This document shows positions 20,446 through 60,014 of a stretch of DNA of 64,000 nt, one piece after another. The position numbers and the translations under genes were made by a program. The DNA comes from Acidobacterium sp. S8 (GTDB lineage Bacteria > Acidobacteriota > Terriglobia > Terriglobales > Acidobacteriaceae): NCBI RefSeq assembly GCF_009765985.1, contig NZ_LMUM01000015.1:62001-126000 (forward strand), read 5' to 3'. The notes under the pieces are model-generated. The model had not been told where the DNA came from. It did not search any database and saw only the letters and a list, made by a program, of their open reading frames with translations. The first letter of the stretch is position 1. Every line of letters starts with the position of its first letter.

Positions 20446-21003
20446 CTAGTAGGTATTTGTTTTTTCCAATTCGTCGAGAGAATACGGCGAAGCGTTTTGC
20501 TGAAACCATTCCATAAGAGAAGCTTCATCCACAGATCCCCATTCTGCCAGAAGAACTGAGAGCTTTTCGATGAGCGGTCCATCTTTTTTGATCAGACGCG
20601 AAGCCAGCTTATAGCCTATCCGTGCGAATGCATTAGTCTCTTGAACTGACGCGACCAGATTCCACGCAACAGCGGTCTCGCGAGAATCTTCGGATGCCGC
20701 CATATCGGCCTTCATCTCTGCGCGGAGGTCATCAGTGATATTCTCAAGATGTTCTTGATCTATAAGACCTCCGACGTAAACAAGAGCAAAACTTCGATGG
20801 ATTAATTTTTCGTCGTCGCGATAGGCTTCTCTCGCTTGCTTCCAATCGCAAACTACGCCTCCGTGCGCATTCGAGATTGCGTCCAGCGCAATTCGTTCGA
20901 CACGGAAACCCGCGCGTAGCGCGACGATGGCGTGAGCAGCAAGATGTCTGGCTGTACGGGACCGTTGCTCTGATTCTTTAACGACATTTGGGGGAGACGT
21001 CAT
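20446..21003 (-). CDS. Degenerate M41-like protein
   Basis: A 185-residue soluble protein that I cannot name with certainty. Residues 17-40 read ARHLAAHAIVALRAGFRVER, which aligns by eye with the zinc-protease helix of FtsH-type M41 peptidases (HEAGHAVVA). Here HExxH has become HLAAH: the catalytic Glu is lost while both His remain. A later ALVYVGGLIDQEHL resembles the ALAGRAAEEL region of that fold. It overlaps the ogt stop by 4 bp (ATGA), so it is the last gene of the alkylation-repair operon. I infer a non-proteolytic M41-like fold of unknown role; the resemblance is short and could be chance. Confidence 0.6.
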   Translation of the reverse strand: MTSPPNVVKESEQRSRTARHLAAHAIVALRAGFRVERIALDAISNAHGGVVCDWKQAREAYRDDEKLIHRSFALVYVGGLIDQEHLENITDDLRAEMKADMAASEDSRETAVAWNLVASVQETNAFARIGYKLASRLIKKDGPLIEKLSVLLAEWGSVDEASLMEWFQQNASPYSLDELEKTNTY

Positions 21004-21512
21004 GTCGGAATCCTCTTGCTGAACAGGTTACAGTCTTTCTGCTCCAGATCGAGCAGATGCGCTTTCGTTTCGAGGCCACCTGCGAAGCCCGTAAGTTTTC
21101 CGGACGACCCAATCACGCGATGACAAGGCACGATAATTGATATTGGATTTCTTCCGTTCGCTGCTCCAACGGCCCGTGTCGCACGCGGGTTCCCGAGCTG
21201 TTTCGCAAGCTGTCCATAGCTTCTTGTCTCGCCGAATGGTATCGCGAGCAAAGCCTCCCATACATCTTTCTGAAATCGACTGCCTTGCATATCGAGAGCA
21301 ATGGAGAACTCTTTTCGTTTTCCAGCGAAGTATTCTCGCAGCTGGCCTTCTGTTTTAACAAGAATAGGATGTTGCTCGTCCTCAACCAGATCGTCGAGGC
21401 GCACACGGTGTGGCCGGTCGTTTTCCCATAAGATGGCGGCCAGACCTTTGTCGCTTGCGACGAGTTTCAGCTTTCCTACCGGCGATTCCATTATTTTCCA
21501 GGCGAGACTCAT
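21000..21512 (-). CDS. ogt: Methylated-DNA-protein-cysteine methyltransferase
   Basis: A 170-residue suicide alkyltransferase that moves the methyl group from O6-methylguanine to its own cysteine. The active-site PCHRV motif lies in ISIIVPCHRVIGSSGKLTGF, followed by the conserved FAGGLETK segment; the N-terminal ribonuclease-H-like part is present. ATG 21512 has AGGGG 8 nt upstream; the frame runs 33 codons further into the alkA 3' end without support. The gap to the alkA stop is 23 nt, and the next gene overlaps by 4 bp. It supplies the O6-alkylguanine activity that in E. coli Ada is fused to the methyl sensor. Confidence 0.93.
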   Translation of the reverse strand: MSLAWKIMESPVGKLKLVASDKGLAAILWENDRPHRVRLDDLVEDEQHPILVKTEGQLREYFAGKRKEFSIALDMQGSRFQKDVWEALLAIPFGETRSYGQLAKQLGNPRATRAVGAANGRNPISIIVPCHRVIGSSGKLTGFAGGLETKAHLLDLEQKDCNLFSKRIPT

Positions 21513-21535: not shown

Positions 21536-22426
21536 TTAACTTGGAACATACGGGCGGCTTCCGCCCGCAGCCCAAAGGTGCTGCGCCGCGTAGGCACGCC
21601 ATGGCCGCCATGATTCAGCGCGGCTCAAGAGATTTGCAGGCGTCGTTTTTTCTCCCTCTATAAAAGCCGCACCGCGGAGCAGTCCAATATCAGTGACCGG
21701 GAAAGCGTCCATCTCGCGGATAGCGCGCAGCGCAATATACTGTGCCGTCCATTCGCCGATACCGCGAATAGACCGCAACCGTGCAACTGTCTCTTCGATA
21801 TTGCCAAAGGGACGAAAGAGATTCGGATCGCCAAATGCCGCCTCAGCTACTGCCTTCAATGCCGACAAACGAGCAGCCGGCATGCCCACCCCAAGCGAGG
21901 CAGCCGAGGCCAGCCGCTTCGATGTAGGAAACACGTGTGACAAATCGTGATGGATGAGAAAAGACTTCGGAACAGCGCGGCCGTGGAGAGCGACAAGTTT
22001 ACCCGCCAATTGGCGTGCAGCGGCAACGCTGATTTGCTGGCCCAGGACTGCGCGTATTGCGGTTTCAAAACCATCCCAACCGCCGGGAGCTCGCAACCCG
22101 GGACGCTGCGCCACGAGCGGAGCAAGCACCGGATCGCCGGAGAGATGAGCGTCGATCGTTTCGATATCAGCTCCGAGATCGAAGACCCGTCGCACCCTGG
22201 TGACGATGGCTGGGAGCGACCTGACATCCGGAAAGCAGATCCTGACACCGAGACTTTGCCGATGCGGAAGATGCCTCACCTCGATGCTGCCGAATGTTCC
22301 GTCCACGTCAACAGTACGCAGATAACGCTCATCCTCCACAACTTCTAGGCCCGGAATCGCGCGCGCCCGCAGGAAGTCGAGCATACAGTCCCAGTCATAT
22401 GGCGGACGGTAGCGAAGTTGAAGCAC
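21536..22426 (-). CDS. alkA: DNA-3-methyladenine glycosylase II (AlkA)
   Basis: A 296-residue base-excision glycosylase. It has an N-terminal AlkA_N domain (LRYRPPYDWDCMLDFL), then FETAIRAVLGQQISVAAARQ and the helix-hairpin-helix LRSIRGIGEWTAQYIALRA, with the catalytic Asp in FPVTDIGLLRG. In many bacteria this domain directly follows an Ada_Zn/AraC module in one polypeptide. Here it starts at a GTG inside the 3' end of the Ada-AraC gene, in another frame, with AAGGA 6 nt upstream. So it may be a real translational restart or the result of a frameshift. It removes alkylated purines and is co-transcribed with ogt. Confidence 0.9.
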   Translation of the reverse strand: MLQLRYRPPYDWDCMLDFLRARAIPGLEVVEDERYLRTVDVDGTFGSIEVRHLPHRQSLGVRICFPDVRSLPAIVTRVRRVFDLGADIETIDAHLSGDPVLAPLVAQRPGLRAPGGWDGFETAIRAVLGQQISVAAARQLAGKLVALHGRAVPKSFLIHHDLSHVFPTSKRLASAASLGVGMPAARLSALKAVAEAAFGDPNLFRPFGNIEETVARLRSIRGIGEWTAQYIALRAIREMDAFPVTDIGLLRGAAFIEGEKTTPANLLSRAESWRPWRAYAAQHLWAAGGSRPYVPS

Positions 22427-23022
22427 ACCACATCCTTCTCCGCATCCTTTGCAGCGTTCTTCCTGCGCAAAGCGCTGGGAGCGCGATGGAACAGATCGCG
22501 AAATGTTTCGTTAAATCGTCGTAAGCTGCCGAATCCAGCGGCCATCGCAACCTCAGTCATCGGCATGCGGGTTTCATGAATAAGCTGCTTCGCGAAAAGC
22601 ACGCGGCGGGTCTGCGCAACCGAGATCGGAGACGCTCCCAGATGCTGCAGGAACAAGCGTCGTAATTGACGCTCGCCCAATCCCAAACGTCCGGCCAGTT
22701 TTTCAACGCCGTTTCCATCGCCATCCAGGGCGCCTTCTGCGATAAGCGCCAGCGCACGAGAAACCGTATTCGAAGTTCCACGCCATGAAGCCAGATCGGG
22801 AGCCGTCTCCGGTCGACAGCGAAGGCATGGTCGAAAACCTGCGTCCTGCGCAGCCGCAGCCGAGCCGAAAAAATTGCAGTTCTGAAACTTCGCTGTACGT
22901 GCCGGACATATAGGGCGACAGTAGATACCTGTCGATGTAACCCCGACGAAGATCAGGCCGTCAAAACGCGCGTCTCGGCTCTGCAAAGCGCGATAACCAA
23001 CTTCACGAGCGGGCAGTTCCAT
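22345..23022 (-). CDS. Ada methylphosphotriester sensor with AraC HTH
   Basis: A 225-residue protein with two domains. Residues 1-75 form an Ada zinc domain: TGIYCRPICPAR and FRPCLRCRPE supply the four zinc cysteines, one of which accepts the methyl group from phosphotriesters. Residues about 85-185 form an AraC-type helix-turn-helix pair (VEKLAGRLGLGERQLRRLF; MTEVAMAAGFGSLRRFNETF). The last 30 residues look like frame-shifted junk beyond the natural linker, because the alternative frame continues as AlkA. It is the first gene of the operon and probably its methyl-dependent activator. The organisation equals the usual Ada-AraC-AlkA fusion, broken at GTGGTGTG near 22426-22434. Confidence 0.88.
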   Translation of the reverse strand: MELPAREVGYRALQSRDARFDGLIFVGVTSTGIYCRPICPARTAKFQNCNFFGSAAAAQDAGFRPCLRCRPETAPDLASWRGTSNTVSRALALIAEGALDGDGNGVEKLAGRLGLGERQLRRLFLQHLGASPISVAQTRRVLFAKQLIHETRMPMTEVAMAAGFGSLRRFNETFRDLFHRAPSALRRKNAAKDAEKDVVCFNFATVRHMTGTVCSTSCGRARFRA

Positions 23023-23184: not shown

Positions 23185-24222
23185 GTGCTGATCGACAGGC
23201 CCAAAGCTGGTATGCGGACGAAACGTCTCTGGAGTAAGCCCCTCACTCTTTTCAATGCCGTCCTTGCTCGACGCCCTCGCACGGCAACCCCAATCGCCAT
23301 CACCAGTCACGCCCGATTCTTCGCCGCAGCCGAATGCGCTCTGGACGATTTCTACATCTTCGACGGCATCCCCGATACCTCCGGCACAATCCTCGACTTC
23401 ACCTTCAGCTACATCAACCCTAACGCCGAGCGTCGACTCGGCATGCCTCGGGAAACCCTCTACGGCAAAATCCTCACTGAAGTTCGGCCCTTCATGATCG
23501 AATCCGGCCTCATTCACAAATACCGTGAGGTCGTCCGCACCGGAACTCCCTACACCTGCGAAGTCTACATCGATGACGAAATGATCAAGGCCACCTGGCT
23601 CAACGTCCAGGTCGTCAGGCTCGGCAACAACAGCATCGCCGTCACCAGCCGCGACGTCACCGAGCACCGCCGCCGCTCCGATCACATCCACTATCTTGCC
23701 CATCACGACCATCTCACCGGCCTCGCCAATCGCATGCTGCTCCACGAGCGTCTCCGCCAGGCTGTCCTCCGCGCACAGAACCACGGCCAGAAGGTCGCAG
23801 TCCTCCTCATTGACATTGACCACTTCAAACAGATCAACGACTCACTCGGCCACGCCGACGGCGATGTCCTCCTCGCCACTGTAGGGCAGCGTCTGCTCTC
23901 CTCCGTGCGCGAGTCCGACACAGTAGCGCGCATGGGTGGAGACGAGTTTGTCATTATCATGCCCGAATTCCGCACCCTGCAGGACATCATGCACTGCGGC
24001 CAACAGATTATCCGCAACACCGTGCAGCCTGTTGAGATCAGCGGACGAAACATAAGCCTGATCCTCAGCGTCGGCGTCTCCGTCTTTCCCGAAGACGGCT
24101 GCACCGCCGAAGAGCTTCTCCGCAACGCCGACGCCGCCATGTACAACGTGAAAGACACAGGCCGCAATAACCTACAAACCTTCGACGAAAGACTTCTGCC
24201 CGCACGCCGCACAACCGCCTGA
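23185..24222 (+). CDS. PAS-GGDEF diguanylate cyclase
   Basis: A 345-residue protein predicted to make cyclic di-GMP. The PAS sensory domain covers about residues 45-150 (FSYINPNAERRLGMPRETLYG). The GGDEF domain covers about 175-335, with the intact active-site signature MGGDEFVIIMPEF. An RESD motif five residues before it matches the RxxD inhibitory I-site, so product feedback is expected. No signal peptide or membrane helix is seen, so sensing is cytoplasmic. The start is uncertain: GTG 23185 or ATG 23212, neither with a strong Shine-Dalgarno. It is divergent from the Ada operon with about 160 bp between. Confidence 0.92.
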   Translation: MLIDRPKAGMRTKRLWSKPLTLFNAVLARRPRTATPIAITSHARFFAAAECALDDFYIFDGIPDTSGTILDFTFSYINPNAERRLGMPRETLYGKILTEVRPFMIESGLIHKYREVVRTGTPYTCEVYIDDEMIKATWLNVQVVRLGNNSIAVTSRDVTEHRRRSDHIHYLAHHDHLTGLANRMLLHERLRQAVLRAQNHGQKVAVLLIDIDHFKQINDSLGHADGDVLLATVGQRLLSSVRESDTVARMGGDEFVIIMPEFRTLQDIMHCGQQIIRNTVQPVEISGRNISLILSVGVSVFPEDGCTAEELLRNADAAMYNVKDTGRNNLQTFDERLLPARRTTA

Positions 24223-34827: not shown

Positions 34828-36396
34828 ATGAACGAGAGACCGACCGCCCTCATTATCGGCGCGGGCCCCGCAGGTTTGACTGCTGCGCTCGAGTTTCTCC
34901 GTCGCTCGGATATTCGCCCTATCGTGCTTGAAGCAAGCCAGGAAATCGGCGGGATCTCGCGCACGGTGCGTTACAAGGGCAACCGCATGGATATCGGCGG
35001 CCACCGCTTCTTCTCTAAATCTGACCGCGTCATGAACTGGTGGACAGAGTTGATGCCGGTCAGTGCCGAAGAAAACGGTGATGGCGAGCATGCGATTCGT
35101 TATCAGAATAAGGAGCGCAAGGTCGCAACTGCCGAGGCTGGCTCCGACTCTGATCTCGTCATGCTGGTGCGACAACGCAAGAGCCGCATCTATTTTCTGC
35201 GTACATTTTTTGATTATCCGCTCAGCCTCAGCGGCAGGACGCTCCACCAGCTCGGCACGTGGCGCATGCTCAGGATCGGAACCAGCTACATTCGCGCAAG
35301 ACTGTTTCCCCGCAAGCAGGAGGTTACGCTCGAAGACTTCCTCATCAATCGCTTCGGCGAAGAGTTGTATCGTACCTTCTTCAAGTCCTATACGGAAAAG
35401 GTCTGGGGAGTTCCCTGTGATCACATCAGCGCCGAATGGGGAGCGCAACGCATTAAAGGTCTTTCGCTGCGCTCGGCCCTGGCGCACTTCTTTCAGAAGG
35501 CTTTCAGCCGCAAGCAGGCGTCAGATATTGCGCAGAAGGAAACTGAAACTTCCCTTATCGAAAAATTTCTCTACCCTAAATACGGCCCTGGCCAGCTTTG
35601 GGAGTATGTAGCTGAGTTAGTTACACAAAAGGGAGGCTGCGTTCAGCTTGGCTGGCGCGTCAATCGCCTGCATGTCGAGAATGATCGCGTGGTTGCAGTT
35701 GAAGCAGCGAATGCTGCTGGTGAGACGCGCCGCTTTGCCGCCGATTATGTCTTCTCGACGATGCCGATACGCGAGCTGATCCGCAGCCTTGATGTCTCCG
35801 TGCCAGAGGAAATTCAAGCCATCAGCGACGGCCTTGTCTATCGCGATTTTCTCACCGTCGGCTTATTGGTGAATAAGCTTTCCGTGACTGAGCCCGATGG
35901 CTCGCCGCTCAAAGACACCTGGATTTATATTCAGGAGCCTGACGTGCAGGTAGGAAGGCTGCAGATATTCAACAACTGGAGTCCATATCTTGTGGCCGAT
36001 CCGGACAAGATGTGGATCGGCCTTGAATACTTCTGCTATGACACAGATGAGCTATGGCACATGCGCGATGAAGAGATTAAGAAATTTGCCATCGCGGAAA
36101 TAGAAAAGATCGGAATTCTGAAATCGGAAGATGTGCTCGATGCTCACGTCGTTCGCGTGCCTAAGACCTACCCTGCTTATTTCGGAACCTACGACCGCTT
36201 CGATGAAATCATTCGTTATATGGATCGATTCGAGAACCTGTTCCTGGTAGGCCGCAATGGCATGCACAAGTACAACAATCAGGACCACTCCATGCTGACG
36301 GCAATGACTGCGGTGGACAACATTATTGCCGGAAACATGGATAAGCATGAACTGTGGGAGATCAACACTGAGCAGGAATATCACGAAGAAAAGTGA
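34828..36396 (+). CDS. FAD-dependent amine-oxidase/UGM-like oxidoreductase
   Basis: A 522-residue soluble flavoprotein. It begins [19 protein letters not shown] (FAD dinucleotide fold), with [16 protein letters not shown] and [13 protein letters not shown], motifs shared by UDP-galactopyranose mutase-like and protoporphyrinogen-oxidase-like proteins of the NAD(P)/FAD superfamily. The C-terminal [19 protein letters not shown] closes the FAD site. Homologues are often found near polysaccharide genes, but this one stands alone, so the substrate is unknown. ATG 34828 was taken as start; ATG 34819 is an alternative. Confidence 0.85.
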
Positions 36397-36466
36397 CCTG
36401 CCGTTTCTTGTTCCGGAAAAGAGAAGCTGTTCCCGCAGAAGGTACGCTTCTCTCCAGCTATAAAAG

Positions 36467-37264
36467 TCACTCTCCCAGTAGTAATCGCTGCGTACTGAAC
36501 GCACGCCCTGTAGATCCGTCACATTCGATAAGAGTAGCCGCCATTCTCGGATCGCCCTTGGCTGCTTCAAATTTCGCGGGCATGCCGGTAAGAAATCGCT
36601 GAAGTACCAGCTCTTTCTCAACGCCGATGATGCTGTCATACGGTCCGCTCATGCCCACATCTGTTTGGTACGCAGTGCCGCCGGGCAGCACACGATCGTC
36701 GGCAGTAGGCACATGCGTATGTGTTCCCAGTACAGCGGTCACGCGGCCATCCAGATACCATCCAAGCGCAGCCTTCTCCGAGGTCGCTTCGGCGTGAACA
36801 TCCACCAGAATTACCTTCGCAGTAATCTGTTTCAGCATCGCATCCACCACGCGAAATGGATCATCGCTCGACGCCATAAACACGCGTCCCTGCAGATTGA
36901 TGACCGCGTACTCCTGTCCTGAAGCGAGCTGGCCCTGATAAAAGCCATGCCCCGGCGTTCCGGCTACATAGTTCGCCGGCCGTATCACTCGACGCGGACG
37001 CTCGTGGCTGTCCGCAGGCACAGACTGCATGTATTCAATAATCTCGCGCTTGTCCCACACATGGTTGCCCGTGGTCAGCACATGCGCTCCCAGATCGAAC
37101 AGCTCCTCGGCGATCACAGGCGTAAGTCCAAAGCCGCCCGCTGCATTCTCGCCATTAATGATGACCAGATCAACTTCGCGCTGCTCGATCACATGGCGTA
37201 CGTGTTCCCGCACAATGCGCCGCCCGGCGCTTCCAAAAACGTCTCCTACAAAAAGAATCCGCAA
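36467..37264 (-). CDS. ymdB: YmdB-type metallophosphoesterase
   Basis: A 265-residue TIGR00282-family phosphoesterase. The metal-site motifs are intact: ILFVGDVFGSAGRR (Asp), VIINGENAAGGFGL, VLTTGNHVWDK and, near the C-terminus, ILVDVHAEATSEK and VLGTHTHVPTAD. B. subtilis YmdB hydrolyses 2',3'-cyclic nucleotides and affects biofilm versus motility gene expression. The gene is monocistronic and divergent from the Rrf2 regulator. Length is typical. Confidence 0.93.
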   Translation of the reverse strand: MRILFVGDVFGSAGRRIVREHVRHVIEQREVDLVIINGENAAGGFGLTPVIAEELFDLGAHVLTTGNHVWDKREIIEYMQSVPADSHERPRRVIRPANYVAGTPGHGFYQGQLASGQEYAVINLQGRVFMASSDDPFRVVDAMLKQITAKVILVDVHAEATSEKAALGWYLDGRVTAVLGTHTHVPTADDRVLPGGTAYQTDVGMSGPYDSIIGVEKELVLQRFLTGMPAKFEAAKGDPRMAATLIECDGSTGRAFSTQRLLLGE

Positions 37265-37390
37265 AACACCTTCCTCACTAGATAAGAAATTTTGATGCTA
37301 GCACGAGGCCAATGTGAATACGTGACTGTTGCAGGCGCAAATGCCTGTTTTGCGATTCGGATTCGAGAAAACCTATGGTAGCGTGGCAGT

Positions 37391-58751: not shown

Positions 58752-59208
58752 TTACCTGTTTACTTTCTCCCACGTAAGCTGCACAGCTACCACGCCCTTG
58801 CCTGACCGAATGGGCGGGGTGCGCAGCGTCATCTTATCGCCTTCGCGCGTGTGGTAGCGGAGCTGCGCCGTTCCCAGCCAGTTGGGGAACAGACTTACTT
58901 CCACATGATGCGTCACCGTGTCGCCCTCGACCGTGTAAGGTCCGGCATAAGCGATGTAATCCCGCTTCCGGCTTGTATTTTTTGCCCTCGGTTTTGTCGA
59001 CCTTATGTCTGCGCCCTGCCGGGCTGAGATTGCCGCTCATGTAGCCTTCAGCGGAATAGAGCAGATAGCCCACGACGTGGTCGCCCCATGGCTTTTCCAC
59101 CGTACCATTTTCATGCAGAAAGGAATAGTCGATCAGCTTCCAGGTGCCAATGAAATCAGCCGCTGTCGTATGCAAAACTTTTGTCGCTCCCTTTTTTGTC
59201 GCTTTCAT
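58752..59208 (-). pseudogene. Frameshifted lipocalin-like domain protein
   Basis: The first 75 codons (start 59208) encode a lipocalin-like domain: FIGTWKLIDYSFLHENGTVE, then PWGDHVVGYLLYSAEGYMS. The reading frame then changes. The other frame continues the same fold as DYIAYAGPYTVEGDTVTHHV and SLFPNWLGTAQLRY and stops at 58752. The break falls at the GGG run at 58961-58963; removing one G joins KYKPEA directly to DYIAYAG. Restored length is about 151 residues. It starts 2 nt after the stop of the ABC ATPase gene. Either a recent one-base insertion has killed the gene or the consensus is wrong here. Confidence 0.85.
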
Positions 59209-59210
59209 AG

Positions 59211-60014
59211 TTATGCTTCCGGCAAAACAAGGGCATCAAGTTCTAGAAACTGACGCACAATCTCATCGTCACACTTTTCCATCTCCTCCATGGTGCCGAA
59301 AAAGTGTGCCTTCGCTTGGTGAAGAAACAGGACGCGGTCTGCAAGCTTCTTGGCGAACCTCATGTCATGTGTCACAACAATGCTGGTGAGATGCAGCTGG
59401 TGCTTCAGCTTTTGAATCAGGTCGCCGAGCAGCCGCGCAATCAGCGGGTCGACCATCGTCGTCGGCTCGTCGTAAAGAATCGCATCAGGCTGCGCTGATA
59501 AAGCACGCGCAATGGCTACCGACCGTTTCATTCCCGTCGACAAGTCAGACGGCAGCAAGTCCTTCATGCCTGCAACGCCCACCATTTCCAGAAGGCCATT
59601 GACGATCTGCTGGATCTGATCCTCCATCAACTCGCCGCGCTCGCGCAAAGGAAAGGCCACATTCTCGCCGACGCTCAGTGAATCAAAGAGCGCCCCGTTC
59701 TGAAAGACCATCGTAACTTTTCGCCGGACGGCCTGCATCTGCTCCTCGGAATACCCGCAGATATTTTGCCCAGCGACCAGAATCTGGCCGGAATCCGGCT
59801 TCAAAAACCCCATGATCTGCTGTAGTGAAACCGACTTGCCAACGCCGCTGCGCCCAAGGATGCAGAGCGTCTCGCCTGGCAGCACAAAGAAGCTCACCTG
59901 ATCCAGCACAACCAGGTCGCCAAAGGATTTCGACACCTTTTCGAAGGCGATATATGGCTCTTGCTTCGACCCGTTTCTCTTCTCATCAACGACGATGATA
60001 GGTACTGTGCTCAA
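59211..60014 (-). CDS. MlaF-type ABC transporter ATPase
   Basis: A 267-residue ABC ATPase resembling MlaF/Ttg2A, the ATP-binding subunit of the retrograde phospholipid transporter at the inner membrane. Walker A is GRSGVGKSV, the Q-loop VFQNGALFDSLSVGENVAFP is typical of the Mla group, the signature reads LSTGMKRSVAIARAL (Thr in place of the usual first Gly) and Walker B is ILYDEPTTMVDP. A 30-residue N-terminal extension precedes the fold. No MlaE permease or MlaD is encoded nearby. Confidence 0.88.
   Translation of the reverse strand: MSTVPIIVVDEKRNGSKQEPYIAFEKVSKSFGDLVVLDQVSFFVLPGETLCILGRSGVGKSVSLQQIMGFLKPDSGQILVAGQNICGYSEEQMQAVRRKVTMVFQNGALFDSLSVGENVAFPLRERGELMEDQIQQIVNGLLEMVGVAGMKDLLPSDLSTGMKRSVAIARALSAQPDAILYDEPTTMVDPLIARLLGDLIQKLKHQLHLTSIVVTHDMRFAKKLADRVLFLHQAKAHFFGTMEEMEKCDDEIVRQFLELDALVLPEA

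Follow-up and report, generated by a model that had tools for sequence, protein, structure and literature searches.

An Ada–AlkA fusion gene read in two overlapping frames in an Acidobacterium assembly

Ada and AlkA domains are described as occurring in diverse combinations across prokaryotes (PMC3788762). Mycobacterium tuberculosis has an adaA-alkA fusion, with adaB/ogt as a gene apart (PMC5751216, PMC7179400), and an ada-alkA fusion is known from Xanthomonas (PMC518961). Here we analyse a stretch of 64,000 nt from Acidobacterium sp. S8 (contig NZ_LMUM01000015.1, positions 62,001 to 126,000; hereafter the window), in which such a sensor module and AlkA lie in two frames that overlap. We find that the gene is a single open frame in almost all relatives compared, and we favour, with moderate confidence, a recent and true short-indel mutation that would have split an ancestral fusion gene in this strain.

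The upstream open reading frame (ORF; 22345–23022, minus strand, ATG start, 225 aa) encodes an Ada sensor followed by an AraC-type helix-turn-helix (HTH): Ada_Zn_binding (Pfam PF02805) scored 100.3 bits over residues 10–72 against a cut-off of 23, and HTH_18 (PF12833) scored 77.9 bits over residues 109–187, spanning profile positions 1–79 of 80. Its translation contains cysteines in GIYCRPICPAR and CLRCRP, which we take to be the metal ligands of the Ada_Zn_binding domain. The second ORF (21536–22426, minus strand, GTG start, 296 aa) corresponds to an AlkA-type 3-methyladenine DNA glycosylase, with an AlkA_N match (PF06029, 143.9 bits) that starts at residue 2 and covers profile positions 2–118 of 118, and an HhH-GPD region (PF00730) of 25.4 bits (E 1.8e-5), slightly below the cut-off of 26.2. 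Since it reached 181.8 bits against the NCBIfam AlkA equivalog NF007641, below the cut-off of 229, we classify the predicted product as an AlkA homologue and, by that cut-off, not as the equivalog.

Directly downstream lies ogt (21000–21512, minus strand; PF01035, 121.8 bits), encoding an O6-methylguanine-DNA methyltransferase, with its ATG at 21512 right past the alkA stop. This gene is a frequent, if not strictly defining, neighbour of Ada–AlkA fusions, and in 60 of the best 80 of 419 named loci it follows alkA by no more than 600 nt. From their spacing and order, Ada-AraC, AlkA and ogt are probably transcribed as one operon; a promoter scan found no promoter, and terminator-like sites numbered 2 versus 3.5 expected. 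After ogt comes a 185-aa ORF (20446–21003, minus strand) that shares 4 bp with the end of that gene and gave neither a Pfam or NCBIfam match at 0.001 nor a tblastn match in the best 80 of 419 named loci. On the other side, a divergent ORF (23185–24222, plus strand) carries an MGGDEF motif in its translation and presumably encodes a diguanylate cyclase.

The two ORFs overlap by 82 nt (22345–22426, minus strand), with the frame change at the upstream end of the overlap, at GTGGTGTG (22424–22431, minus strand), and a frame offset of 2; an SD-like AAGGA (22433–22437, minus strand) precedes the AlkA GTG by 6 nt. In these respects (coordinates, overlap in different frames, GTG start and motif) the assembly reads as the earlier note had described it. 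The final ~28 codons of the sensor ORF are the start of alkA read in the wrong frame, and the AlkA frame in turn is open for 28 codons upstream of its GTG, so that both frames are open over 166 nt. Ada and AlkA do not share one frame in the window, whereas relatives run on in one frame at the site of the frame change. The break sits in a short linker and leaves the domains of both modules whole.

How unusual is this arrangement? In a scan of named genomes, from which the best 80 of 419 loci were taken, the nearest loci came from Acidobacteriaceae and other acidobacterial records, and Ada and AlkA shared one open frame in 76 of these 80, which, for the relatives compared, bears out the earlier statement that the two modules are usually one polypeptide. 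Among Acidobacteriaceae and kin, four uninterrupted loci (L034, L035, L038 from Paracidobacterium acidisoli, and L051 from KBS 89) have AlkA 78–84% and Ada 85–89% identical to the window and are likewise followed by ogt, yet each is one open frame of 517–550 aa where the window has two. A family sample of 398 genomes, the window's own included, gave a similar picture: of the 79 matches (from 78 genomes) with a score better than 1e-60, 72 had an open frame of at least 432 aa, frame length serving as a stand-in for fusion. The fused frame is thus, as judged from these sequences, the normal state of the gene among close relatives, and the split in the window is the exception.

The remaining loci are of mixed kinds. 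Of the four non-fused cases among the best 80 of 419, one is a draft acidobacterial genome (L055, 4000–4873) in which alkA is preceded by the tail of an HTH module alone, with no Ada domain; one (L066) is ended by a contig boundary; and one (L068) has Ada and AlkA in the same frame but contains a stop close to where Ada begins. In the fourth, Phenylobacterium aquaticum (L108, 3380–4900), AlkA is read in another frame than Ada; this break falls close to the junction, towards the end of the HTH module. The seven short frames among the 79 family matches comprise the window itself, G768 (the same record as L055; these two and L218 are one acidobacterial draft locus), and five others: G378 and G346:C28, where no Ada match was found in 3 kb of sequence; G297, with Ada in another frame than AlkA and an undetermined base at the break; G192, in frame and cut by a contig end; and G270, where the match begins at base 3 of the contig, judged by coordinates alone. 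Among six stretches with a short AlkA frame (five from a phylum search, plus G768), five read alkA then ogt with no Ada match upstream. Separate Ada and AlkA arrangements thus do occur in nature.

Neither half of the split gene shows signs of decay. In an alignment of the window with 32 of the 80 named loci (L033–L065 without L055; the Ada set also without the fragment L045), one of 63 otherwise invariant columns was changed in the Ada half of the window, compared to 0–3 in relatives (leave-one-out, 32 sequences), and none of 67 in the AlkA half, compared to 0–7 (leave-one-out, 33 sequences). The glycosylase hence retains every residue that is invariant in its close relatives, and we reject decay of either half. 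For a true mutation, this points to a recent event or to a split that is maintained; a base-call error is compatible with it as well.

Is the AAGGA ahead of alkA a sign that the separate start has been selected? Four of the seven nearest uninterrupted relatives with AlkA at least 75% identical (L034, L036, L037 and L051) carry the motif at the same place in their fused gene, and in several uninterrupted relatives it forms part of Lys-Asp or Lys-Glu codons; since it is coding sequence there, it is probably older than the break. Across the 76 fused relatives from the best 80 of 419 loci, AAGGA occurs at this place in 6, and predicted pairing there is as strong as in the window in 18. Given its coding role in fused genes and this equal pairing, the motif does not count as a sign of such selection. 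In 37 of the same 76 (again from the best 80 of 419), the stretch from −6 to +3 codons around the junction holds a start codon; in 4 of the 76 an SD-like motif accompanies it, and in 2 such a motif goes with a start exactly at the position of the window's GTG; a conserved internal start in fused relatives is rejected on these counts.

The site itself is nevertheless a good one. Predicted SD pairing of the AlkA GTG amounts to −6.6 kcal/mol; by the same measure, the ATG codons of Ada and ogt score −1.0 and −8.2, respectively. Pairing at least as strong was found for 41% of 194 long ORFs when scored by their best candidate start, an upper bound, and for 4.8% of 4440 internal start-like codons. 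The AlkA GTG thus pairs within the range of real starts. With pairing this strong for an internal start-like codon and no decay in either half, separate translation of AlkA from this GTG is possible, and some free AlkA is probably made, by chance rather than by design.

Relatives from the same genus provide a further view on the fate of the gene. One genome (G002) has a one-frame Ada–AlkA fusion copy elsewhere in the genome and a second ada-alkA copy (L164), in which the Ada part is open and alkA has an early TAG and is shortened; another (G001; L163) retains only a C-terminal remnant of alkA, beside an ogt-like gene on the opposite strand; and in a third (G003) no AlkA_N match was found. The damaged copies favour a real mutation in the window, although the damage could itself be an artefact, as both genomes are drafts of limited completeness (G001 77%, G002 59%). 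Elsewhere in the genome of strain S8, an Ada with a methyltransferase domain is encoded in one 392-aa frame, and the strain may therefore tolerate losing the fusion.

Could the break simply be an error of sequencing or assembly, the strain having an ordinary uninterrupted ada-alkA gene? We regard this as possible and less probable than a true mutation. The prevalence of uninterrupted genes in both relative sets and the lack of decay, which fits an error equally well, would be expected under it, and the break in ada-alkA is not the only one in the assembly. Two further genes were found split between frames such that both parts match one Pfam family: a Lipocalin_5 gene in the window (58755–59235, minus strand; break near 58958, with profile positions 1–69 in one ORF and 61–142 in the other) and an outer-membrane beta-barrel gene in the same genome (C19, L240:4328-5465; PF25183 positions 506–688, then 690–838). 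They came from a codon-usage scan of 424 kb of the assembly. Such scans are insensitive and yield candidates only: the known ada-alkA break was missed by one, ranked 34th of 44 candidates by a second, and was absent from the 13 pairs of the third; of these 13 pairs 8 were run against Pfam, the two named genes being the ones with a shared family. A further pair, in the window (36055–37297) and from the second scan, had no Pfam family in common. Such additional breaks count against a true mutation, in that an assembly prone to errors would explain them no less well than ordinary pseudogenes would. Against an error, however, speak the quality of the assembly (38 contigs, 99.99% complete, 0.34% contaminated), the lack of any run of five or more equal bases within the 166-nt double-open stretch and, with the reservation about drafts noted above, the damaged copies in genus mates.

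If the mutation is true, the break might have been kept by selection, a separate sensor and glycosylase allowing another stoichiometry in the adaptive response; the earlier note had suggested that the split may be functional. The position of the break in a short linker between whole domains, the strong SD-like site ahead of the GTG and the second frame break near the junction in P. aquaticum would fit such a functional fission. We nonetheless consider it unlikely: AAGGA appears to predate the break as coding sequence and is matched in pairing strength by some of the fused relatives, few of which combine a start with an SD-like motif, and the split is seen in a single strain. The earlier note had named an uninterrupted gene in all relatives as what would speak against a functional split, and the 76 of the best 80 of 419 loci come close to that; its picture of an Ada-AraC/AlkA fusion broken between modules, with a usable-looking AlkA start, is upheld, and its functional reading is not. 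Programmed −1 frameshifting, producing a short sensor plus the full fusion, is highly improbable. The offset is of the −1 type and 166 nt are double-open, but this stretch contains no X XXY YYZ heptamer, just as it lacks runs of five or more equal bases, no unusually stable structure was predicted (z 1.31; 185 of 200 shuffled sequences gave an equal or better fold) and relatives use one frame. With neither slippery heptamer nor stimulatory structure, the locus was rejected as a programmed −1 frameshift gene.

What is observed is one frame in relatives, two in the window and intact domains; a true mutation in the strain is what we infer. The ancestral state would have been a fused ada(sensor-AraC)-alkA gene sharing an operon with ogt. 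A short indel where the linker joins the modules, in its simplest form a two-base duplication within GTGGTGTG, would have left the upstream ORF to encode a predicted sensor-regulator without the glycosylase. Free AlkA may still be made from the GTG at some level, since the Lys-Asp codons shortly before it spell AAGGA by chance. Three proteins, an AdaA-like regulator, AlkA of uncertain level and Ogt, would then come from the operon instead of two. On a more doubtful view, the locus could represent a very early gene fission, in which a linker indel gave two translated proteins in one step, the upstream coding sequence already working as a ribosome site.

Should the mutation be real and the two proteins indeed be made, the locus would offer a clean natural example of a fusion gene splitting with neither half lost, and the level of the glycosylase would be uncoupled from that of the sensor in the adaptive response. 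If the break is an error, it serves as a reminder to check reads before split genes are inferred. In either case the split locus looks ordinary, not a new kind of system. In Bacillus subtilis, AdaA, AdaB and AlkA are separate proteins, and the inferred outcome in the window would be the same, three products, although here its origin would be a shift of frame within a fused gene. In M. tuberculosis adaA-alkA and Xanthomonas ada-alkA, the sensor module is joined to AlkA, whereas in the window sensor and AlkA occupy two overlapping frames; ogt is a gene of its own in M. tuberculosis, as it is here.
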